From Candidatus Nitrosopumilus sp. (lineage in GTDB: Archaea; Thermoproteota; Nitrososphaeria; Nitrososphaerales; Nitrosopumilaceae): 41,246 bases of DNA. This document shows positions 4,902 to 24,169 of the stretch, piece after piece; the stretch's first letter is position 1, and each line of letters opens with the position of its first letter. The notes under the pieces are model-generated. The model was not told the DNA's origin and searched no databases. It was given only the letters and a program-made list of their open reading frames with translations. The position numbers and the translations under genes were made by a program. Location of the stretch: positions 3,432-44,677 of the forward strand of contig JAHELP010000005.1 in NCBI GenBank assembly GCA_024644105.1. The letters run 5' to 3'.

Positions 4902-5672
4902 TTGGCAAAAAGATCAATCCCTAAAGGAGTAGTTAAAGACATCATAATTGTCGCAGTAGGGGTTTTAGTCATTTGGATTGGTCTGCAGGTGGCTTTTGGA
5001 ACACAAAATCCGTTTTATGTTGTAGCAAGTGGAAGTATGATTCCAGTTTTAGAAGTATATGATGTATTGATAGTTTCAGGTCATGAACCTTTTGAAGACA
5101 TTGAAGTAGGAGATATCATTGTGTTTAATCGCCCATCTGATCATGATAGAGTGATTGTACATAGAGTAGCATCAATAATTGAGGATGATCCTAAAACAAT
5201 TAGAACTAAAGGTGATGCAAATCCAGCATCAATTCCAGGAACTGACTTTCCGATTACAGAAGAAGAATATATTGGAAAAGTAGCATATACACTTCCTCAA
5301 GTAGGATATATCACTCAATTGCTAAAACCTCCAATCAACTACATCATTATTGCAATTGTAATTGGTATAATGGTTGTAAAACAATTGATAAAAAAGAAAA
5401 AGGAGAAAGAACTTCCTCTTGAAGATCCATTTGATTCAGTAAATCCTGATACAATTGAAGAGTTATCCGATATTGACAAGATTGAAAAAGATTCAGAATA
5501 TTCTGAGCATGTTGAAGAATCTACAGACGCAGAAGAGTTAGACGATACTGACAAACCTGAAAATGTTACAAAAGCTGCCAAGATCGATAAAACTTTTGAA
5601 GGAATAGAGGATTCCATAGATGAAAAAACAAAATCAGAAGAAAAGGATGAAAAAACAAAGAAGAAAGAATAG
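4902..5672 (+). CDS. Signal peptidase I (archaeal type), TTG start
   Basis: 256 aa; VVASGSMIPVLEVYDVLIV Ser motif, IVHRV, TKGDAN; TM segments; acidic/Lys-rich tail. Confidence 0.9.
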   Translation: MAKRSIPKGVVKDIIIVAVGVLVIWIGLQVAFGTQNPFYVVASGSMIPVLEVYDVLIVSGHEPFEDIEVGDIIVFNRPSDHDRVIVHRVASIIEDDPKTIRTKGDANPASIPGTDFPITEEEYIGKVAYTLPQVGYITQLLKPPINYIIIAIVIGIMVVKQLIKKKKEKELPLEDPFDSVNPDTIEELSDIDKIEKDSEYSEHVEESTDAEELDDTDKPENVTKAAKIDKTFEGIEDSIDEKTKSEEKDEKTKKKE

Positions 5673-5849: not shown

Positions 5850-6709
5850 AATATTTGCTTATTTTTTCAATAATTTTTGTAATTAGTTCTGCATACGCAC
5901 AAACTCCATTTCGTGATACTGCAGGCTTGACATTAAATGGAATAGAATGGTGTGAAGAAAATTATCAGTTGTATTATTTTATGGGAAACGATTTCTTTGA
6001 ACATCACAATCATTCTATTGAATCAAGAATTTGTGGAAATTTGTACAACGATGATTTATGGTTGTATTCTGAACCAGACAGATACCAGAAACTAATTGAA
6101 CAAAGTAGAATTTATTATAATTTAGAAATTCAAGAAAGTGAAGTTGAGGCCCAAGAGGGTAAAATAGATACAAAATCTGTAAACATAAAAGAAATCCCTC
6201 AAGAGATTGCTCAACAACAAAAAGAATTAGATGAATCAGATGTAGAGTTGGAATCAAACCAAGAGATAGAATCAATTGGAGAGAATATCGAGACAATTAT
6301 TCCTCAAGAAGAGAAAATAGATAATTCCCAAGGCGGTGGTTGTCTAATTGCAACTGCAACATATGGCTCTGAAATGGCACCACAAGTTCAACTGTTACGA
6401 GAAATCAGAGACAATCAATTACTAAATACTGATTCAGGTGTTTCATTTATGACTGGATTTAACTCGCTATACTATTCATTCTCACCACATATCGCAGACA
6501 TGGAAAGACAAAGTCCAATATTCAAAGAGATTGTAAAGATTGGAATTACACCATTACTTTCTACACTATCTGTAATGGAGTATGCAGAGACAGACTCTGA
6601 GGTACTAGGGTATGGAATTGGAGTAATATTGATGAACTTGGGAATGTATGTTGCAGCACCAGCTATGCTGTTCTATCAAATAAAAAATAAAAGAAAAAAA
6701 GGATTTTAG
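5846..6709 (+). CDS. Secreted/membrane protein with CFI-box-like C-terminal module
   Basis: 287 aa; signal peptide; GGGCLIATATYGSEMAPQVQLLREIRDNQLL...SFMTGFNSLYYSFSPHIADMER; C-terminal TM. Confidence 0.75.
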   Translation: MKYLLIFSIIFVISSAYAQTPFRDTAGLTLNGIEWCEENYQLYYFMGNDFFEHHNHSIESRICGNLYNDDLWLYSEPDRYQKLIEQSRIYYNLEIQESEVEAQEGKIDTKSVNIKEIPQEIAQQQKELDESDVELESNQEIESIGENIETIIPQEEKIDNSQGGGCLIATATYGSEMAPQVQLLREIRDNQLLNTDSGVSFMTGFNSLYYSFSPHIADMERQSPIFKEIVKIGITPLLSTLSVMEYAETDSEVLGYGIGVILMNLGMYVAAPAMLFYQIKNKRKKGF

Positions 6710-7650
6710 GCGTTTTTGCTTATGTCACCACATATTCCAGGGGTAGAACCATCTGGAAGACATTCAGGACTAAATCCTACTATTTCGTCAATCTGTCTGT
6801 TTCCATTTCCATTTCCTGAATCGCTCAATTCAAACATCATCCATGCTTCATCATTAGATGCATCGGCATCAACAAATGCGTTATCTGGATTCCATTTATG
6901 AACTAGGAAATATACTCCGTTTGGAAGATCAGTGATATTGATTTCATTTCCTTCAACTGATTGATGATATTGATCAACCCAACCAGCTTGAATTCCTTGA
7001 AGACCTACTTCACAATCCCAATAGATTCTTTGAGAAGTTGGTGATTCATCGCCATTGTATTTGAATACATCAGCAATACAGAATCCAACTTTAACTGATG
7101 CAATTTCATTTCCATTTACATCAAGTGCTATATCACCTGGGACAGATGGATTTGTTATATCAGCATATCTTATTGAGAATTCTCCTATATCGTTAATGTG
7201 CCAGTGATTGTGTGTGTCATGAAAGATGAATTCACTCACAGTTTCACTCCAAATGTTTTCGGATGGCATACCAAAGTTTCCTGCATCATCATATAGATTT
7301 TGGAAAGCATCTTGGGTTGCTCCTTCATCAGCATTTGGATCAGGGAACAGTGGTTCAAATTCTAAAGAACCAACACCCACATTAGCCCATACATTGGTAA
7401 ATCTTAGCCATTCATTTTGTTGTTGGTTATGAATATTGAGATGTTTTGGAATTCCTGGAGATATGTCTGGAAGAAGTGCATTACTTGGTACACCTGAACC
7501 GCCATTATTTCCATTTCCATTTCCATTTCCATTTCCACCTGGAGCTGCTGCTGCATCCAATAGCATTGGAGTTGCAAACATAAATCCAAAGGCAAGCAAT
7601 ACCGGGATTAGCATTAGAGGTTTTCGAAGGATGTTTTTTCTAAAAGTCAT
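6706..7650 (-). CDS. Secreted lysyl-oxidase-like protein (putative copper enzyme)
   Basis: 314 aa; signal peptide, GNGNGNGN low-complexity linker, HNHWHINDIGEFSIRY (LOX-like HxHxH), VKVGFCIADV, GLQGIQAGWVDQY...NITDLPNGVYFLVHKWNP. Confidence 0.75.
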   Translation of the reverse strand: MTFRKNILRKPLMLIPVLLAFGFMFATPMLLDAAAAPGGNGNGNGNGNNGGSGVPSNALLPDISPGIPKHLNIHNQQQNEWLRFTNVWANVGVGSLEFEPLFPDPNADEGATQDAFQNLYDDAGNFGMPSENIWSETVSEFIFHDTHNHWHINDIGEFSIRYADITNPSVPGDIALDVNGNEIASVKVGFCIADVFKYNGDESPTSQRIYWDCEVGLQGIQAGWVDQYHQSVEGNEINITDLPNGVYFLVHKWNPDNAFVDADASNDEAWMMFELSDSGNGNGNRQIDEIVGFSPECLPDGSTPGICGDISKNA

Positions 7651-7769
7651 TGATCAAGACAAGAATGTTTGATACTTAAAGGCCTGTCAGTAAGACAAAT
7701 TACAAGCTATTTTTGAATGATACAAAGATATTTTGTTTAATTTCAGAGAATATGAAAACAGTATTTTTT

Positions 7770-9296
7770 CTATAGAAGAGAATCTTTTGTTTTGAAAACT
7801 CTATCAAAGTAATCAGATTGTTCTCTTGGTTCTTCAACATCGTTTGTGACTCCAGCCAAATTCTTTGCCAAGTTCTTTTTGTAACCTACTTGCATCTGTC
7901 TTTGGATTTGGATTCTTTGTGCTTGTGGTGAGCCTGCACCATGCATGGATTCTGTTAGATATCCTACGGCATTTCTTCCCAAAGTCATATTTTCAATTAA
8001 TCTTAAAATTCTCATTCTATTTTCTACATCAGCACCTTTTCTTCCTGCAAGATATTTTTTGAGTAGTGGTCCAGCCTCTGGATGTCTAAAGTCTTTTTCA
8101 GAAGGCAATGTAACTACAAGACCGCCTGCAATGTCTTGTGCAAGTCTGGCAATCTCATATGGTAATCTAGTAACATTGTGTTTGCAAACTTGAGCAAGCA
8201 TATCTTCATTTAGATATACACCTGATTTCATTTTATGTCCTTGATGTGAGGATGCAATTCCTGCTGCAAATATTGTTTCATTAAGATGAGTCATCTCAAT
8301 AAGTTTGTCCTTGATGTGAGATACTTTAGGAACACCATTGTAATCGGCAATTGTAGCTGCTGCACCAATTAACACATCACCAAGGCCGGTTTTGCATACA
8401 TAGCTGCGTCTATGATAACAAGTAAATCTCTCTATCAACATAGATGCAAATTCATATTCTCCATGCATGAAAACTTTATCCCATGGAATAAACACTCTAT
8501 CTAAAATCATCAATGCCTCTTGTCCACCATACTTTGCATTACCATCATCAATGTCACCTTCTTCCATACTTCTTGTGTCACAAGACTGTCTACCGTAAAT
8601 GTAAGTGACTCCTTTGGCATCTGCTGGAATTGCACCAACGATTGCCCAGTCTTTATCGTTTTCTGTTAGTCTGACTGTTGGCATTAAAATAATCCAGTGT
8701 GAATTAATACACCCAGTTTGATGGGCTTTTGCACCAGATACATAGATTCCTTTATCATCTCTATCAACTACTCTAGTAAACAAATCAGGATCCTCTTGTT
8801 CAGCAGGTCCTTTGCTTCTGTCACCCTTTGGATCAGTCATTGCACCACCAATAACGAGATTTTCTTTTTGCATCATCTTTACAAATTCTAAGAATTTTTT
8901 ATGATAATCTGTTCCATGTTTTTCATCAATTTCAAATGTAGTAGAATGTAAAGAATTCAATGCATCCATTCCTACACATCTTTGGAAACAAGTTCCTGTG
9001 TTTTGACCTAGTGTTCTTTGCATTTTGTTTTGCATTACTAAATCTTGAGCGCTTTCTGCAATGTGTAAAAATCGGTTTACTTTCAGTCCAGTAAGTGAAG
9101 AATCTGCAGATGCTAATGCTTCTTCACGTACAGCAAGATCATAGGTTTCTGCAACTGCATTAATTGATGGTCTAATCATAGGGTGATCGACTGGTTCTTT
9201 TACCAATTCTCCAAAGAGGTAAATTTTGAGATCTCTACCTCTAAGACTTTCAATGTAATCATCACCTGTTCTAATTGTCTTTAAGACATTAGCCAT
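7770..9296 (-). CDS. 4-hydroxybutyryl-CoA dehydratase / vinylacetyl-CoA delta-isomerase
   Basis: 508 aa; CFQRCVGMDALNSL and CYHRRSYVCKTG cluster/active-site segments of the 4-HB-CoA dehydratase family. Confidence 0.92.
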   Translation of the reverse strand: MANVLKTIRTGDDYIESLRGRDLKIYLFGELVKEPVDHPMIRPSINAVAETYDLAVREEALASADSSLTGLKVNRFLHIAESAQDLVMQNKMQRTLGQNTGTCFQRCVGMDALNSLHSTTFEIDEKHGTDYHKKFLEFVKMMQKENLVIGGAMTDPKGDRSKGPAEQEDPDLFTRVVDRDDKGIYVSGAKAHQTGCINSHWIILMPTVRLTENDKDWAIVGAIPADAKGVTYIYGRQSCDTRSMEEGDIDDGNAKYGGQEALMILDRVFIPWDKVFMHGEYEFASMLIERFTCYHRRSYVCKTGLGDVLIGAAATIADYNGVPKVSHIKDKLIEMTHLNETIFAAGIASSHQGHKMKSGVYLNEDMLAQVCKHNVTRLPYEIARLAQDIAGGLVVTLPSEKDFRHPEAGPLLKKYLAGRKGADVENRMRILRLIENMTLGRNAVGYLTESMHGAGSPQAQRIQIQRQMQVGYKKNLAKNLAGVTNDVEEPREQSDYFDRVFKTKDSLL

Positions 9297-9369
9297 GATA
9301 CATTATTCTTTTTTATCTTGTATAAATATTGTAAATTATGCACACGCAAGTTTTAGGAATGAATAGCGA

Positions 9370-11466
9370 TCAGAGTCCAATTCTGACATCTAGAATTTTA
9401 CAACCCTTACCCTTTTCCATAACAAGTACAGGGTTCATATCCAATTCTTTGATTTCTTTAAAGTCAGAAACCAATTGAGATAATCTCTGAATACATTCAG
9501 ACAGTTTTGCAATGTCTGATGGTTTTTCACCTCTTACTCCTTGAAGTAATTTTTGAGTTTTGATTGATGCAATCATGTCATCAGCTTCTAAACTAGTTAC
9601 GGGTGCAAGCTTGAATGTGACATCTTTTAGAACTTCTACATAGATTCCTCCCATTCCAAGCATGATTACAGGGCCGAATCCAGGCTCTAATTTTGAACCA
9701 ATGATTAGCTCTTTGCCACCTTTAACCATCTCAACAATTAGTACACCTTTAATCTCAGCTTTACTGTTGTATTTTTTTGCATTTTTGATAATTGTTTTGA
9801 ATGCATCTTTAATTTCTGCATCATTTGTCAAGTTAACTTTAACACCACCTGCATCAGATTTGTGAATTATTTGTGGTGATGCAATTTTCATTACAACAGG
9901 GTAGCCAATTTTTTTTGCAATCTTTACTGCTTCTGTTTCATTTTTAGCTAGTGAACTTTTAGGTAATGGTAAACCATATGCTTTTAGAACTTCTTGTCCT
10001 TCTTCTTCTAATAGATTTGGCCTTTTTTCTTTTTTGACTTTATCAAAAATTTTCTGAGCTTTTGCTTTGTTTACTTTGAATTTTGTAATTTTTCCATTCG
10101 GAGCTTTGACCCAATTTGAAAACGTAGTCATTGCACTAAGAGTTCTGATTGCTCCTTCAGCATAGTTGTAGTATGGAACATCTCCATCTGCTAAAATTTC
10201 TCTATTAGTAACACCTTCATCTAATCCCATTAGACTTGCAAGCATTGTTTTTTTGTATTTCTTTGACATCTCAACTACAACTTCAGCTAGTTTATCATAA
10301 TTGAGAGTTCCAGAAGGAGTACACATTGTAATTACAGAGCCTACCTTTGGATGTTTGAGTACACGATCCAAAACGTTATGGAATCTGTTAAAATCAGCAT
10401 CGCCTACAATGTCAACAGGATTTCTAGAGCTGCCCCAAGGTGGAATTACTTCATCAATTTTTTTTCTAATACTAGTTATTTCTGCCATTTTGAGTTTCAT
10501 TTTAGAGCATGCATCAGTTGAGATAATTGCAGGACCGCCTGCGTTTGAAACAATTACAAGATCACCAGCTGATGGTAATGGTTGTTTTGAGAATGCAGTT
10601 GCATAATCAAAGAGTTCTTCCATTGTATCAACACGGATAGCGCCTGATTGTTTGAGTAAGGCATCATAGATTTCATCTGAGCCCATTAGTGCTCCAGTAT
10701 GAGACATTGCAGCCTTTGCACCCTCTGGACTACGTCCGGATTTGAGAACAAGAACTGGTTTTTTTAGTTTTTTAGTAATATTTTTACAAACTTTGAGAAA
10801 CTCTTGACCATCTCCCATGTCTTCAAGATACATTACAATAACTTTGGTTTGTTTGTGGTTTGCGAGAATTTTTAGAATATCAACTTCGCTCATTACAGCT
10901 TTATTTCCAAGACTTACAACTGCTGAAAAACCAATTCCTTGAGCACTAGCATCTTCAACTAGTGCTGCACATATTGCTCCACTTTGAGACACAAGTGCAA
11001 TCTTTCCAGACTTTGGTGTTACTTTAAGGAAAGTAGAATTCATCATTGTTTTTGGATCAAGATTCATCACACCAAGACAATTAGGTCCTATGATTTGGAT
11101 TTTGTATTTTTTAGCAATGTCTTTGATTTCTTGTTCACGTTTTGCACCTTCTTCATCAACTTCTTTGAAACCAGCAGTGATAATGATAACACCTTTGACT
11201 TTTTTCTTTCCACATTCTTCTAAAACTGGTGCAACTAGAGTATTTTTGATAACTATTACTGCAAGATCAATTGATTTTGGAACATCTAGAACAGACTTGT
11301 ATGCTTTTTTGTAAAAGACTTTGTCTCTTGATGGACTAATTGGATAAACAATACCTTTGAAGCCATTCATAATATTGGATGTAATTGTAGCTCCAACACT
11401 TCCTCTCTTATCAGATGCACCAATCACTGCAATAGATTTTGGTGATAGAATAACAGATTCTGTCAT
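9370..11466 (-). CDS. ADP-forming acyl-CoA synthetase (fused alpha-beta), likely 4-hydroxybutyrate- or 3-hydroxypropionate-CoA ligase
   Basis: 698 aa; N-terminal CoA-binding domain, SQSGAICAALVEDA, MSHTGAL, C-terminal ATP-grasp; next to 4-HB-CoA dehydratase. Confidence 0.88.
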   Translation of the reverse strand: MTESVILSPKSIAVIGASDKRGSVGATITSNIMNGFKGIVYPISPSRDKVFYKKAYKSVLDVPKSIDLAVIVIKNTLVAPVLEECGKKKVKGVIIITAGFKEVDEEGAKREQEIKDIAKKYKIQIIGPNCLGVMNLDPKTMMNSTFLKVTPKSGKIALVSQSGAICAALVEDASAQGIGFSAVVSLGNKAVMSEVDILKILANHKQTKVIVMYLEDMGDGQEFLKVCKNITKKLKKPVLVLKSGRSPEGAKAAMSHTGALMGSDEIYDALLKQSGAIRVDTMEELFDYATAFSKQPLPSAGDLVIVSNAGGPAIISTDACSKMKLKMAEITSIRKKIDEVIPPWGSSRNPVDIVGDADFNRFHNVLDRVLKHPKVGSVITMCTPSGTLNYDKLAEVVVEMSKKYKKTMLASLMGLDEGVTNREILADGDVPYYNYAEGAIRTLSAMTTFSNWVKAPNGKITKFKVNKAKAQKIFDKVKKEKRPNLLEEEGQEVLKAYGLPLPKSSLAKNETEAVKIAKKIGYPVVMKIASPQIIHKSDAGGVKVNLTNDAEIKDAFKTIIKNAKKYNSKAEIKGVLIVEMVKGGKELIIGSKLEPGFGPVIMLGMGGIYVEVLKDVTFKLAPVTSLEADDMIASIKTQKLLQGVRGEKPSDIAKLSECIQRLSQLVSDFKEIKELDMNPVLVMEKGKGCKILDVRIGL

Positions 11467-15669: not shown

Positions 15670-16344
15670 TTAGATTACTAAAATTCCATTTGTAATCAAA
15701 TATTGAATGCCAGCAATAAAGTCTGAATCATTTAACAATCCTTCAGACCACCAACCTGCATTATTTTTTACCCATGATGGGATTTCTTCAGTGGTATTCT
15801 CACCTGCTTCAGTTGGTGGAATTACAATAACACCATTAGTAATCAAATATTTTATTCCAGCCACAAAATCTGCATCTTCTAGTAATCCACCAGACCACCA
15901 GCCTGCATTATTTTTTACCCATGATGGGATTTCTACAGTAGTTGGAGAAGAAGATAAGACACTTGTTCCAAGAATTTCAATTTCTTGATCATCAGTATAA
16001 AATGGAATAATCAAAGTTCTAGTGTTATCAGCTGAGTCAATTTCAAGGTAATCAGACTCTGTTCCATCAATCAATACAAAAAAGATATCATCCTCATCAT
16101 CAAATGTTGCATCGATTAATCCTCTGGGAATGTTAAGTTCTATAAAACCATCATCAAATGAGACAATTTCTATAATCAGTGATGTCGTATCAACATCTAA
16201 ATTCATAACAAGAATTTCACCATTTTCAATATCATAACCTACATCATAATCTAAAATATCATACAAACTAGCCTCAGCATATACTGAATTAAAAGAAACA
16301 AGAATCAAGGCTGCTGTAAGAGCAAACAATGACTTGAAGATCAT
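15670..16344 (-). CDS. Secreted protein with two C-terminal IPSWVKNNAGWW repeats
   Basis: 224 aa; signal peptide; IPSWVKNNAGWWSGGLLEDADFVAGIKYLITNGVIVI and IPSWVKNNAGWWSEGLLNDSDFIAGIQYLITNGILVI. Start overlaps the upstream stop. Confidence 0.8.
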   Translation of the reverse strand: MIFKSLFALTAALILVSFNSVYAEASLYDILDYDVGYDIENGEILVMNLDVDTTSLIIEIVSFDDGFIELNIPRGLIDATFDDEDDIFFVLIDGTESDYLEIDSADNTRTLIIPFYTDDQEIEILGTSVLSSSPTTVEIPSWVKNNAGWWSGGLLEDADFVAGIKYLITNGVIVIPPTEAGENTTEEIPSWVKNNAGWWSEGLLNDSDFIAGIQYLITNGILVI

Positions 16345-18182
16345 GTAGTATCCCCAACTATCTCTTGTTCCACTTCATTGCTTACTTCAGCACAAATCTC
16401 TGCTAGAAGATCGCCTTCTAGGTCTACAAGTTCTTCGTCAGATAATCCCTCTAATTCTGCATCAGTATAGAAATCAGCAAGTGTCATTTCATAGCAATCA
16501 TCAATTGATTCCTCAACTACTTCATTTACTTCGGCTATTTCCTCTACATCTTCAAAGACAGTTATTGGTACAGGATCATCAACTGCAAGTGTTCCTACAA
16601 AGTCTAGAATCCATTCAGTTCCAGATTTACTCTTACCATCTGTAGCAACAATATCAATTGATGCACCTAACTCTGTAGGAAATATTCCATCCATTTTGAT
16701 TTGCATTGCAAATGTATGTGGCATGCCACTAGTATCAACTGTGTTTATTGCAACTTGTAATGAATTAGTATCAAAGTTTGCTCTACTTCTTCCAAATGCT
16801 ACATCATGTACATTGTGTACTTCACCAGTAGCTGCATCTTCAATGACAATTTGTCCACCAATTATTTTTAGAGTTGCACCAGAATCACCCAACCTTACTA
16901 ACTCCAGATTAACATCACCTGATACTGTTTTTACATTATTTTCGTTTGATGTATTAAATGCATCACCTTGGAAACTTAGAACATAATTTGTTGTGTCTTC
17001 TTCAGGAAGTTCTACTATATCTCCATAGTAACTTCCATCTTCAACTTTATCTATCAAGTCTGATGATCTTACCTTATCTCGAATTGAATCAATTCTCTCT
17101 TTTACTTCAGCACGGATTTTCTCTTTGTGCTCTAATACAATTTCTCTAAATTTATCTTTCCCAACTTCTTGTATTTTTAATTTGATTAAATCAGTTCTAA
17201 ATTCCACTCTATCGTGAATTTTATCTTTAATTTTATCTCGAACTTCTTGACTTACTTTATCATTTACTTTGTCTTTAACAGCATCTTTAACTTTGTCTCT
17301 AATTTCTAATGCTACTTTGTCTTTAACTTTGTCAGTAATTCTATCCTTTACAGAGTCACGGAATTCTTGGATGTTAACTTTTTTATTTTGAATTCTTTCT
17401 TTAACTTCAGCTCGTTTGTCTTGGATTCTTTCTTTAACTTCAGCTCGTTTGTCTTGGGCCTTGTCTTTTAGATTTGAAATTATTTCACTTCTATTGTTTT
17501 GGAATTTCTCCCTAAGATCTGAGCGCTTATCTAAAATTTTTGATTGAATCTTGTCTTTTCTATCTGATATATTGTCTCTAATTTGATCTCTTTTTTCCTG
17601 TACTCTGTCTTTTATTGCATCTTTTCTATCCTGGATGTTATCATGAATTTGATCTCTTTTTTCCCTAGCTTTTTCCTGTAATTCTGCTCTTTTTTCAGCC
17701 AATTTTTCTCTGGCTTGTTGTTTTCTTTCTTCTAATTGATCTCTAATTTGCTGTTTACGTTCTTCTAGTTTTTCTCTGGCTTGTTGTTTTCTTTCTTCTA
17801 ATTGATCTCTAATTTGCTGTTTACGTTCTTCTAGTTTTTCTCTGGCTTGTTGTTGACGTTCTTCTAATTCAGCTCTTGCTTGTTGTTTTCTTTCTTCTAG
17901 TTTTTCTCTGGCTTGTTGTTGACGTTCTTCTAATTCAGCTCTTGCTTGTTGTTTTCTTTCTTCAATCTTGGCTTGCTCTTGTTGTCTACGCTCTTCTTCT
18001 AATTGAGCCATCTTACGTTTCTCTTCAGCAGTCATTTGATCAGAAGAAATTGAATTTGCATCTTTAGTGGTGTCAGTATGACTATCAGCAAAGGCAATAC
18101 TATATGATGAACTAGAAAATCCTGTAACTAATACTAAAATCAAAGATATTGCATATACTGTTTTTATCATGAAGACAAACAA
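16341..18182 (-). CDS. Secreted hendecad-repeat charged helical protein with C-terminal beta domain
   Basis: 613 aa; signal peptide; about 20 tandem 11-residue units (EERKQQARAEL/EERQQQAREKL/...); later VKTVSGDVNLELVRLGDSGATLKIIGGQIVIED domain. Confidence 0.85.
   Translation of the reverse strand: MFVFMIKTVYAISLILVLVTGFSSSSYSIAFADSHTDTTKDANSISSDQMTAEEKRKMAQLEEERRQQEQAKIEERKQQARAELEERQQQAREKLEERKQQARAELEERQQQAREKLEERKQQIRDQLEERKQQAREKLEERKQQIRDQLEERKQQAREKLAEKRAELQEKAREKRDQIHDNIQDRKDAIKDRVQEKRDQIRDNISDRKDKIQSKILDKRSDLREKFQNNRSEIISNLKDKAQDKRAEVKERIQDKRAEVKERIQNKKVNIQEFRDSVKDRITDKVKDKVALEIRDKVKDAVKDKVNDKVSQEVRDKIKDKIHDRVEFRTDLIKLKIQEVGKDKFREIVLEHKEKIRAEVKERIDSIRDKVRSSDLIDKVEDGSYYGDIVELPEEDTTNYVLSFQGDAFNTSNENNVKTVSGDVNLELVRLGDSGATLKIIGGQIVIEDAATGEVHNVHDVAFGRSRANFDTNSLQVAINTVDTSGMPHTFAMQIKMDGIFPTELGASIDIVATDGKSKSGTEWILDFVGTLAVDDPVPITVFEDVEEIAEVNEVVEESIDDCYEMTLADFYTDAELEGLSDEELVDLEGDLLAEICAEVSNEVEQEIVGDTT
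17337..17996. repeat. Hendecad-coding repeat array (33-bp period; 66-bp units near-identical at 17703-17966)
   Basis: 66-bp units starting at about 17703, 17769, 17835 and 17901; a further 33-bp duplication at about 17391-17456. Confidence 0.85.
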
Positions 18183-18205
18183 ATTTTGTGATTTAAAACA
18201 CTTTT

Positions 18206-18231
18206 GTAACTATGTTAGGGAACAATGTTAC
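18206..18231. promoter_or_regulatory. Two abutting imperfect copies of GTAAC-N3-GTTAC
   Basis: GTAACTATGTTAG (18206-18218) and GGAACAATGTTAC (18219-18231), upstream of the CDS starting at 18182. Confidence 0.55.
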
Positions 18232-18300
18232 TAAAATAAATTATTAAATTCAAATTATAATTTAGAGTAGTAATAATAAATTTTAAAAAAGTTATGAAAA

Positions 18301-18753
18301 TTAATCTTCTATAGAGTCATCAGACAATTTCTTGTCAATATCTGCTTGTTTTGCTTTAAAGCGGGCATATTTTTTATCCCATTTTGATAAAACAAACCAT
18401 TGCCGAACTCCAATACCTAACCAGACAAGTGAGATTGCAAAGATAATTAGCTGTGGTGGATTTAGAAGTAGATTGGTTCGTCCACGATCTATTACTTTGG
18501 ATTTAATATTTTCATATTCTTCCTCAGAAATGTCTCCATTGCTCAAATGATTTTGTAAACGCATCTCTAATTTTTCATCAAATGGAGAATCAAACACGCT
18601 TGTCATTACAAGCAAAGCTAATGGTGGTAAAATCAAAGTTGTCAAAATCATTATCATAAAGATTTTTTTTGTATTTCCCATTTGGAACATGATTCCATCT
18701 AAAATTTCAAAGACATTTTCTCGTTTTTCAGAGTCTTTACTCGAATCAGTCAT
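18301..18753 (-). CDS. Membrane protein with SHOCT-like segment
   Basis: 150 aa; two TM regions; LQNHLSNGDISEEEYENIKSKV resembles SHOCT. Confidence 0.7.
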   Translation of the reverse strand: MTDSSKDSEKRENVFEILDGIMFQMGNTKKIFMIMILTTLILPPLALLVMTSVFDSPFDEKLEMRLQNHLSNGDISEEEYENIKSKVIDRGRTNLLLNPPQLIIFAISLVWLGIGVRQWFVLSKWDKKYARFKAKQADIDKKLSDDSIED

Positions 18754-18788
18754 GAGTAAATCTCCCGTTTTTCATTAAAAACGCTTGA

Positions 18789-18801
18789 GTAACAATGTTA
18801 C
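18789..18801. promoter_or_regulatory. Palindrome GTAAC-AAT-GTTAC
   Basis: Perfect arms; 36 bp upstream of the CDS starting at 18753; overlaps the stop of the upstream wHTH gene. Confidence 0.55.
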
Positions 18802-19094
18802 TTGTCATTTTTGTCCTCCCTTGGGAATAATTCCTCATATGGATCCAAAACTTCTTTCATAATACGTACACCTTTTTCAGAAATCTTGTATTTTAGAATC
18901 AGTTTATTTCCCCATGGTTCTTTTTCTAAATTTAAAATCCCCTTTTCAATCATATCATCTAAAATTCCTTTGTGTTTTGCATTATTCAATCCACAAATAC
19001 TCATCAATTTACTTTGATTTAGTTCTCCGTATTCGTATAGCTTTAGTAAAATATCTTTTCGGATGTAAATTCGGTCTCTATATTCACGCGCCAA
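18798..19094 (-). CDS. Small winged-helix DNA-binding protein
   Basis: 98 aa; RKDILLKLYEYGELNQSKLMSICGLNNAKHKGILDDMIEKGIL...YKISEKGVRIMKEVL. Confidence 0.75.
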   Translation of the reverse strand: MAREYRDRIYIRKDILLKLYEYGELNQSKLMSICGLNNAKHKGILDDMIEKGILNLEKEPWGNKLILKYKISEKGVRIMKEVLDPYEELFPREDKNDK

Positions 19095-19132
19095 ATAAAT
19101 CCCCTTCTTTTGATTTACAATAGATTAGAACA

Positions 19133-19276
19133 TTACTGTTCCCATATTCTCTTACTTCTCGGTTTTGTTCTAAGTCGAGTTGCACAGCAAGGACAGTTAA
19201 CTTCTTCAGTATAAAAATAGCAATCACATGTACCACACCTTTTCTGTCCCGATTTGTATCGTAAATTATTTGGCAT
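19133..19276 (-). CDS. Small zinc-ribbon protein
   Basis: MPNNLRYKSGQKRCGTCDCYFYTEEVNCPCCATRLRTKPRSKRIWEQ; two CxxC pairs. Start chosen at the internal ATG of the listed 19133..19327 ORF. Confidence 0.65.
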   Translation of the reverse strand: MPNNLRYKSGQKRCGTCDCYFYTEEVNCPCCATRLRTKPRSKRIWEQ

Positions 19277-19357
19277 TGAAATTGATTTTTTCTGGCCACA
19301 AATACCCTTACAAATCTGCGTCAACAAATCACGGAATCATTTTTTTCACATAAAGAC

Positions 19358-19376
19358 AAGGTAACTTTGTTACCTT
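19358..19376. promoter_or_regulatory. Palindrome AAGGTAAC-TTT-GTTACCTT between divergent genes
   Basis: 8-bp perfect inverted repeat around TTT; about 47 bp upstream of the 19423 start, just before a TTTAAAT-like TATA element. Confidence 0.6.
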
Positions 19377-19422
19377 ACAATTGTTAACAAGTCTTTAAAT
19401 TCATTTTCTCATCTGATTTTCA

Positions 19423-20055
19423 ATGAAAACAAAACAAACGTTACCCGCTATGATTGCACTAGCTGCAATAATGGCAGTTGCCTTCTCACCTATGGCATTA
19501 GCCGTAGATGCAAATGGTAACATTGCCACAACTACCGATGTAGCAGGAGTATCTGCAGATGCTAACATTTCCACAAGTGTAGCAGCAGAACGTCCTGTAG
19601 TCACGGAAGTTAGACCACAAGTTCAATTTGATGGAACTACAAGTGGCTGGGCAGTTATAGCAGGTCAAGCACATGAAGCAAAAATTGCTATTGATGGAAA
19701 AGCAATACGTAATGATAATGGCGTATGGAAAGTTAAATCTAATGCAGAAATTTCTGCAGCAGATCACCATGCAACATTAGAATTAAAAGGTAAAGCAATC
19801 AATGGTAAAATCAAACTTCATGGTACTGGTACATTAGATTCAGGTGAATCCTTTAGAATTATTCTAAGAGGACATTACACACCAGTCTTTGATGAACAAG
19901 GAACATTTGTGATGGCCTTTACAGCAGCAAAAATTCATTCAACTCAAAATGGAATAAACATTCCATTGATTCAGAGTGGATTAGTAAATGTTGAGGCAGT
20001 AAACCCATCAACAGATGATTATGAGAAATTCGTAGATGAATTTACTGTTAAGTAA
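19423..20055 (+). CDS. Secreted beta-rich hypothetical protein
   Basis: 210 aa; signal peptide MKTKQTLPAMIALAAIMAVAFSPMALA. Confidence 0.8.
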   Translation: MKTKQTLPAMIALAAIMAVAFSPMALAVDANGNIATTTDVAGVSADANISTSVAAERPVVTEVRPQVQFDGTTSGWAVIAGQAHEAKIAIDGKAIRNDNGVWKVKSNAEISAADHHATLELKGKAINGKIKLHGTGTLDSGESFRIILRGHYTPVFDEQGTFVMAFTAAKIHSTQNGINIPLIQSGLVNVEAVNPSTDDYEKFVDEFTVK

Positions 20056-23262: not shown

Positions 23263-24018
23263 ATGGGATTGTTGGATAGATTTAGTCGTACGTTTGACAA
23301 GCATGGATATGATCTAGACGGTTATGACAAAAATGGTTATGACAAAAAAGGGTATGATAAGAATGGTTATGGTAAAGATGGATACAACAAAAATGGTTAT
23401 GACAAAAAAGGATACAACAAAAATGGGTTTAACAAAAATGGGTTTAACAAAAATGGTTATGATAAAAAAGGATACAAAGACGGTTATGATGAAGATGGAT
23501 TCGATTTCAAGGGTTACAATAAAGATGGGTATAACAAAAATGGTTATGATAAAAAAGGATATGACAAAGAGGGGTATGATAATCGGGGGTTTTCTATAGA
23601 TGGAATTCACATCGATACAAAAATTGCTTTTGATAAAGATGGGTTTAACAAAAATGGTTATGATAAAGATGGTTTTAACAAAAATGGTTATGATAAAAAA
23701 GGATACAACAAAAATGGGTTTAACAAAAATGGGTTTAACAAAAATGGTTATGATGAAAACGGGTTTAACAAAGACGGGTATGATGAAAACGGGTTTAACA
23801 AAGACGGGTATGATGAAAACGGGTTTAACAAAGACGGGTATGATGAAAACGGGTTTAACAAAGACGGGTATGATGAATTAGGATATGATGAAAACGGGTT
23901 TAACAAAGACGGGTATGATGAATTAGGATATGATCATTTAGGTTACGACAAAGAAGGATACAATCAAGAAGGATACAACAAATTCAATAAAAAGAAAAAC
24001 GAAGTATACAGTGATTAA
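23263..24018 (+). CDS. G[YF][DN]xx tandem 5-residue repeat protein
   Basis: 251 aa almost entirely GYDKNGYDKKGYDKNGFNKNG... No signal peptide. Overlapping track ORFs are repeat artefacts. Confidence 0.8.
   Translation: MGLLDRFSRTFDKHGYDLDGYDKNGYDKKGYDKNGYGKDGYNKNGYDKKGYNKNGFNKNGFNKNGYDKKGYKDGYDEDGFDFKGYNKDGYNKNGYDKKGYDKEGYDNRGFSIDGIHIDTKIAFDKDGFNKNGYDKDGFNKNGYDKKGYNKNGFNKNGFNKNGYDENGFNKDGYDENGFNKDGYDENGFNKDGYDENGFNKDGYDELGYDENGFNKDGYDELGYDHLGYDKEGYNQEGYNKFNKKKNEVYSD
23761..23880. repeat. 30-bp tandem repeat x4 inside the 5-residue repeat gene
   Basis: gggtttaacaaagacgggtatgatgaaaac at 23761, 23791, 23821; the fourth unit ends gatgaatta. Confidence 0.9.
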
Positions 24019-24169
24019 AACAAATTTTTTATCTGAATAGATTCAATAAAAAGTGTGCATCCTCACTGCTAGTCTATTTGCTGAGACTGAAGAAGATAAT
24101 ATTATGCATAAAATAATAATTACAAATTGTAGCTAGAACAATGTTACAGATTTTGGATCATAATAATTA

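Follow-up and report, generated by a model that had tools for sequence, protein, structure and literature searches.

The window, by which we mean the whole stretch of 41,246 nucleotides that was analysed, comes from a Nitrosopumilus-like genome that comprises 1,285,034 bases in 95 contigs. Within it, a short gene for a winged-helix (wHTH) protein is surrounded by genes for membrane and secreted proteins, and the palindrome GTAAC-N3-GTTAC recurs in the spaces between them (Table 1). The sequence-only reading had placed these palindromes upstream of three gene units. All of its coordinates match the sequence, and they also confirm that the 19-bp palindrome AAGGTAACTTTGTTACCTT (19358-19376), which contains the exact site at 19361-19373, lies between the zinc-ribbon-like gene 19133 and the secreted protein gene 19423. 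The sites therefore stand, but the count of units does not, because four promoters are involved: those of 16341, of 18301, of 19133 together with 18798, and of the divergent gene 19423.

Table 1. Genes, operator copies and promoter elements of the module, in window positions.
Feature	Position	Strand	Sequence	Remark
Secreted protein gene	15670..16344	-		Overlaps the end of 16341 (16341-16344)
Target gene, secreted helical-repeat (hendecad) protein	16341..18182	-		Probable start is the ATG at about 18169
TATA of 16341	18198-18191	-	TTTTAAAT	7 nt past the proximal operator
Operator copy, TATA-proximal for 16341	18206..18218		GTAACTATGTTAG; - strand CTAACATAGTTAC	One mismatch
Operator copy 2 for 16341	18219..18231		GGAACAATGTTAC; - strand GTAACATTGTTCC	One mismatch; abuts the 18206..18218 copy
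Partner gene, 150-aa protein	18301..18753	-		Two hydrophobic helices, charged helical ends; adjoins the wHTH gene
TATA of 18301	18781-18774	-	TTTTTAAT	7 nt past the 18789 operator
Exact operator between wHTH and partner genes	18789..18801		GTAACAATGTTAC	Overlaps the wHTH stop codon
Regulator gene, 98-aa wHTH protein	18798..19094	-		TTG start; HTH_45 / Sso10a-related branch
Gene for a 64-aa double CxxC (zinc-ribbon-like) protein	19133..19327	-		From the ORF list; start uncertain
Exact operator common to two divergent promoters	19361..19373		GTAACTTTGTTAC	Serves 19133/18798 and 19423
Weak second operator register	19374..19386	+		Abuts 19361..19373; ends 7 nt before the 19423 TATA
Divergent target gene, 210-aa secreted protein	19423..20055	+		N-terminal hydrophobic signal

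The 16341 protein gave an apolipoprotein-like helical repeat match (E 2e-10) that lies under the curated cut-off. Its gene probably shares a transcript with 15670..16344, and the order of these two genes is kept in the related loci L047, L048 and L049. The protein encoded at 15670-16344 carries two PSWVKNNAGWWSxGLLxDxDFxxGIxYLI repeats in its C-terminal half. Upstream of the wHTH gene and in the same direction, 19133 has a counterpart in many, but not all, of the related loci; a Pfam search with its protein gave no match. The 18301 protein had been labelled SHOCT-like, and this membership is rejected, with 16 bits (E 0.0099) against the 27-bit cut-off of Pfam PF09851. The hydropathy profile of this protein has its maxima at residues 31 and 103, and the fold model is all-helical with a low confidence (pLDDT 71.5). 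It forms a separate family of two-helix membrane proteins.

In a genome-wide scan, GTAACNNNGTTAC was matched exactly at two places in the 1,285,034 bases, both of them inside the window at a distance of 572 bp, and the tandem one-mismatch copies (18206-18231) lie 558 bp from the nearest exact site. When one mismatch was allowed, there were 22 distinct places in the genome, four of which fall within this 1.2 kb. All four local sites (18206-19373) are intergenic and stand beside TATA boxes; among the other one-mismatch sites, nine of the 11 readable ones lie within long ORFs. Two exact and four near-exact sites were observed where a first-order Markov model of 18151-19450 gives means of 0.0005 and 0.021, respectively; in 4,000 simulations, neither number was ever attained. 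The motif is above background and concentrated at its own locus, in agreement with the earlier proposal of a local regulon.

Read towards the gene, the promoter of 16341 is GTAACATTGTTCC-CTAACATAGTTAC-AAAAGTG-TTTTAAAT, and that of 18301, immediately upstream of which the 18789 site lies, is GTAACATTGTTAC-TCAAGCG-TTTTTAAT. The promoter of 19133 and 18798 reads GTAACAAAGTTAC-CTTGTC-TTTATG, where the TATA-like TTTATG stands 6 nt from the operator, and the promoter of 19423 reads GTAACTTTGTTAC-(20 nt)-TTTAAATTC, with TTTAAA as its TATA. The operator end is thus separated from the TATA by 6-7 nt at three of the promoters and by 20 nt at the fourth, that of 19423. The weak second register on the side of 19423 is very degenerate in the window (six mismatches in 10) and clearer in the set of relatives, and the back-to-back layout of the divergent side recurs, in a stronger form, at 16341.

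According to Pfam, the wHTH protein belongs with HTH_45 (PF14947). The protein of the window scored 23.7 bits (E 4.9e-5), just under the curated 25.5, and the assignment holds through its relatives, which scored 29.7, 30.3 and 31.1 bits (E 4.3e-7 to 2.5e-7) against the same threshold. NCBIfam Sso10a_fam gave 22.6 and 29.2 bits, with an E of 6.8e-7 for the type C protein described below, and these scores lie below the cut-off of 60; MarR (Pfam PF01047) gave 17.1 to 21.5 bits against 24.6, and the wHTH likewise fell under the Pfam cut-off for PadR. The AF2 model (pLDDT 88.8) has a helix-turn-helix, a wing and a long C-terminal helix, and among solved structures it comes closest to the centromere protein AspA, MarR/PadR regulators and Sso10a-2 (TM about 0.64, 25% identity); ZitR, Rv3488 and OhrR are also among the Foldseek matches. 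An alignment of 60 sequences has 19 invariant columns and a conserved core, EYRDRIYIRKD. In the recognition helix, GLN..KHK is kept and residues 38, 39 and 43 are clade-specific. Cys34, in the turn before this helix, is nearly invariant across all clades and may be a candidate redox or metal-sensing residue.

We searched 84,980 species for wHTH loci with a scan that depends on conserved peptide words, leaving out close matches to the genome of the window. The scan returned 69 loci, 67 of them usable, and all 69 are labelled Thaumarchaeota or Nitrososphaeria. In the 67 loci, 55 exact sites fall in the 146,864 bases that lie no more than 1 kb from the wHTH gene, and six in the remaining 751,451 bases; these counts, like all site counts over the loci, are not independent and are inflated by common ancestry. 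The motif is kept at orthologous promoters across Nitrososphaeria, as the sequence-only reading had required of a genuine regulatory site. Two places are fixed, one upstream of the wHTH gene or of its small upstream gene, and the other immediately past the stop codon of the wHTH, ahead of the membrane-protein gene. Where a locus carries extra envelope genes, operators are found upstream of these too. Coding constraint at the wHTH stop codon was considered as the cause of the 18789 site and rejected, since relatives keep the site up to 60 nt past the match end.

The spacing is also conserved. On the membrane-gene side, an A/T-rich TATA starts 5-8 nt past the operator in 30 of 37 sites, and at exactly 7 nt in 16; on the divergent side, the TATA is found at 20-21 nt in 22 of 34 sites. 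The wHTH side of the divergent site shows a looser TATA spacing, as judged by a crude measure of A/T runs. Across 35 loci, the 13 bases that abut the divergent operator have a mean of 4.91 mismatches of 10, the lowest of 26 registers (the next lowest, at offset 13, has 5.6, and most have 6.4-9.0), and in the relatives, too, 7 nt separate the end of this register from the TATA. By this comparison, these bases resemble a second, degraded operator.

The membrane-protein gene is a near-constant companion of the regulator. A profile search of 80 relatives found the partner in 24, the wHTH in 23 and both in 22 (one genome, G056, being weak in both searches). The two genes are adjacent, and in type C loci they are convergent; therefore, their adjacency is not merely a matter of co-transcription. 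The wHTH loci that have no partner also have no operator (four of four; Fisher p = 0.0006). At seven partner-bearing loci, no site was found even when one mismatch to any of the consensus forms was allowed; four of these have two-mismatch forms. Purely from this near-invariable linkage, we infer that the membrane protein is probably a sensor, tether or restraining partner of the wHTH.

The operator changes with the regulator. The type B clade has (A/G)GAAC-N3-GTTAG at the same place, and the type C wHTH, a paralogous clade with 45-49% identity, is without the GTAAC form and has TTAACAWTGTTAA (TTAAC-AWT-GTTAA). In the complete 1.56-Mb genome G007, all seven type C operators found genome-wide lie at 502,021-505,531, with the wHTH gene at 502,094, and near the wHTH gene lie seven of eight in G045 and five of six in G013. 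Both the A and C systems are carried by G002, G013 and G015. On a tree of 72 wHTH proteins, operator class requires 15 changes, against a mean of 37.4 when shuffled, and none of 200 shuffles was as low. This correlated change of operator and regulator is the strongest evidence that the wHTH reads the palindrome. There is no simple residue-to-base code, because three Nitrosotalea-like loci pair a type A operator with a type-B-like protein.

The putative target genes vary between loci. In most type A loci the divergent gene encodes a PepSY-like secreted protein; the window, L046 and L049 have the 19423 type there, and several type B loci have a gene for an ABC-transporter ATPase. The PepSY match (Pfam PF03413) of the divergent protein in relatives is suitably placed, but its scores of 17.8 and 18.0 bits (E about 0.004) lie below the cut-off of 24. 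In L048 and L049, the PepSY-like gene lies apart from the wHTH and has retained its own operator. Elsewhere in the genome of the window, a search that had no positive control there found no PepSY-like gene. Helical-repeat orthologues of 16341 in L047, L048 and L049 have an operator with about 7 nt between it and the TATA, and SRPBCC-domain genes in L059 and L060 carry operators. The secreted targets differ between lineages and are usually PepSY-like rather than of the 19423 type.

We consider the palindrome to be the operator of the wHTH, and the module to be a local, self-regulated envelope regulon in which the wHTH is a probable TFB/TBP-loading activator with a membrane sensor partner (probability about 0.83). 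The sequence-only reading had suggested the protein of 18798..19094 as the possible regulator of a local envelope module, and the clustering of the sites, their conservation and their tracking of wHTH clades give that suggestion strong support. A wHTH dimer would probably bind the palindrome directly, one subunit to each GTAAC half-site. It would act on its own operon, together with the small zinc-ribbon-like gene, and hence be autoregulated, and its further targets would be the two-helix partner gene and one to several genes for secreted or membrane proteins, which would be co-regulated. With operators almost only at the few promoters round the wHTH gene, such a regulon would be local. Most likely, by analogy with TFB-RF1, the wHTH bound directly upstream of the BRE/TATA would help TFB/TBP to load and would thereby activate transcription. 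The membrane partner would probably sense, or restrain the wHTH at, the membrane, with cell-envelope proteins as the output. Autoregulation, an invariant membrane partner, a secreted target that varies with lineage and a near-constant distance from operator to TATA all go beyond the sequence-only reading.

The same wHTH could instead be a local repressor that blocks TFB from the BRE and keeps the module shut until an envelope signal arrives, which we regard as a real but minority possibility. Close palindromes at every promoter of a small, self-regulated unit are typical of local MarR/PadR-type repressors, whose fold the wHTH resembles. Furthermore, the short distance between operator and TATA permits overlap with the BRE, blocking of TFB there would give the same spacing, and the tandem sites of 16341 could lengthen a blocking complex. 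However, the sites leave the TATA box and the start uncovered and stop a rather constant 7 nt short, whereas repressors tolerate variable positions. Archaeal activators usually bind upstream of the BRE/TATA, and repressors within it or downstream (PMC5937170). Because the operator lies directly upstream of the BRE/TATA at a near-constant spacing, we favor activation under this rule.

It is very improbable that the wHTH is a mere neighbor and that the sites are bound by another protein, such as the zinc-ribbon-like product of 19133 or some unlinked global regulator. The zinc-ribbon-like gene does share the operon in the window and in several type A and C relatives, and CxxC genes related to it occur at type A and type C loci. 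At many loci with operators, however, it is not seen, for which reason we reject its product as the binder, whereas the wHTH is always there and the form of the operator shifts with its clade. Moreover, among the matches listed, exact sites with an A/T-only spacer number 20 in 22 wHTH genomes, 16 of the 20 being near the wHTH gene, against about five in some 55 relatives without a wHTH. An RNA-level role as hairpins or terminators, or an origin as remnants of a mobile repeat, is scarcely credible: each site does have a T-rich run after its inverted repeat, but the stem has only 5 bp, the copies are short and share no longer sequence beyond the promoter, and the placement ahead of divergent genes, where transcripts would not be expected to terminate, together with the near-constant distance to the TATA leads us to reject the hairpin or terminator. 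That a 10-base palindrome clustered here by chance, in an A+T-rich genome, is next to impossible: about one exact match is expected by estimate for a genome of this size and composition, and relatives do contain exact matches that are unrelated and frequently have G/C in the spacer, but the simulations, the recurrence of the arrangement across Nitrososphaeria, the site counts of the 67 loci and the type C clustering in G007, G045 and G013 refute it.

The closest functional parallel to an activating wHTH is the TFB-RF1 system, which we liken to it by its working and not by sequence homology. In Pyrococcus furiosus, TFB-RF1 (PF1088) uses a 13-bp palindrome, TCTGAANTTCAGA, upstream of a weak BRE and activates its own expression; its operon includes PF1089, an integral membrane protein whose function is not known, and it has one further target, a transporter (PMC5937170). 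Both are small archaeal regulators with a palindromic operator upstream of the BRE/TATA, a reach confined to their own operon and a few targets, an output related to transport, and a membrane-protein partner; in our system, the palindrome is likewise upstream of the BRE/TATA at its own and a few other promoters, and the integral membrane partner has two hydrophobic helices. However, the operator sequences are unrelated, PF1089 has four predicted transmembrane segments against two in the partner here, the present partner has its own operator and may be convergent, and the lineages differ (Nitrososphaeria and Thermococcales).

By family, the best match is Sso10a/HTH_45, which has a similar fold. 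Sso10a1 and Sso10a2 bend, bridge or coat DNA and have been assigned a role in chromatin (PMC4941522). In contrast, the palindromic operators of the wHTH branch differ from clade to clade and are confined to the locus of the regulator, and these operator data point to sequence-specific binding rather than to non-specific coating of the Sso10a kind. With MarR and PadR regulators, the wHTH shares the winged helix, the long C-terminal helix, palindromic operators and self-regulation, but in its 98 aa it has no separate ligand domain, and it has an invariant membrane partner. EarA, which activates the archaellum operon of Methanococcus, is comparable as an archaeal activator linked to the BRE of its target promoter, where a change of the BRE bypasses the need for EarA (PMC5512572, PMC5937170). 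The copper-limitation motifs of Nitrososphaera viennensis (TTCSGSMTTTGWACYANT and RATTTAAABATAGATTTAAATAATAAS) differ from the operator (PMC7785015) and were set aside. A literature search, with most subscription journals outside the set searched, found no description of the motif or the regulator. We regard the wHTH system as a one-component regulator that would act locally by reading a palindrome, with a membrane partner that is nearly obligatory and with parallel copies that have diverged.

Ammonia-oxidising archaea are among the most abundant cells of the ocean, and their transcription regulation is poorly known, with few pairs of regulator and operator. The present system occurs in both marine and soil members and would provide a compact gene switch for cell-surface proteins. 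It offers a protein with exact 13-bp sites, a promoter geometry and a list of targets, and nature supplies a series of protein-operator pairs that have diverged. In organisms whose genetics is difficult, one small protein would suffice to examine in vitro how specific the binding is, whether it activates or represses, and whether a signal passes from membrane to gene. The findings also suggest that part of the HTH_45/Sso10a group, which is known for chromatin proteins, would be operator-specific switches. Going further, we put forward tentatively, at somewhat less than even odds, an undescribed signalling design, in which an obligatory two-helix partner that senses the envelope would hold or release a wHTH that drives its own few envelope genes, and which would have been duplicated within the phylum, the parallel systems being kept apart by diverged half-sites (GTAAC, GAAC/TAAC and TTAAC), with A and C in one cell.

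Several minor observations accompany these loci. In L047 (genome G044), the wHTH gene at 5033-5326 has an in-frame TGA at codon 8, and all three operators have one mismatch each; this single case possibly reflects decay of operators after loss of the regulator. The type B loci L081, L091, L093, L101, L104, L106, L110 and others adjoin an ABC-transporter ATPase and a large secreted CARDB-related protein, which suggests an export-linked version of the switch. In the type C module of L115, seven TTAACATTGTTAA operators occupy 3.5 kb (6022-9532, corresponding to G007:C1:502021-505531). The genes flanked in type C loci encode a CxxC protein, a pair of DUF1059 and EMC3/TMCO1-like membrane proteins, C2H2-like small proteins and an AsnC-domain protein, and in L118 they include a cupredoxin. 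In many Nitrosopumilus-like genomes, GTAACACCGTTAC occurs once, off the wHTH (G035:C1:1376134, G007:C1:1357810), and these recurrences are possibly a conserved coding stretch and not an operator. In the window itself, AGAACAATGTTAC at 24135-24147 is a type-B-like copy of the operator that lacks a TATA box at the customary spacing and that we left out of the operator counts, and the protein encoded at 23263-24018 consists almost entirely of short repeats of the GYDKNGYDKKGYNKNGF type.
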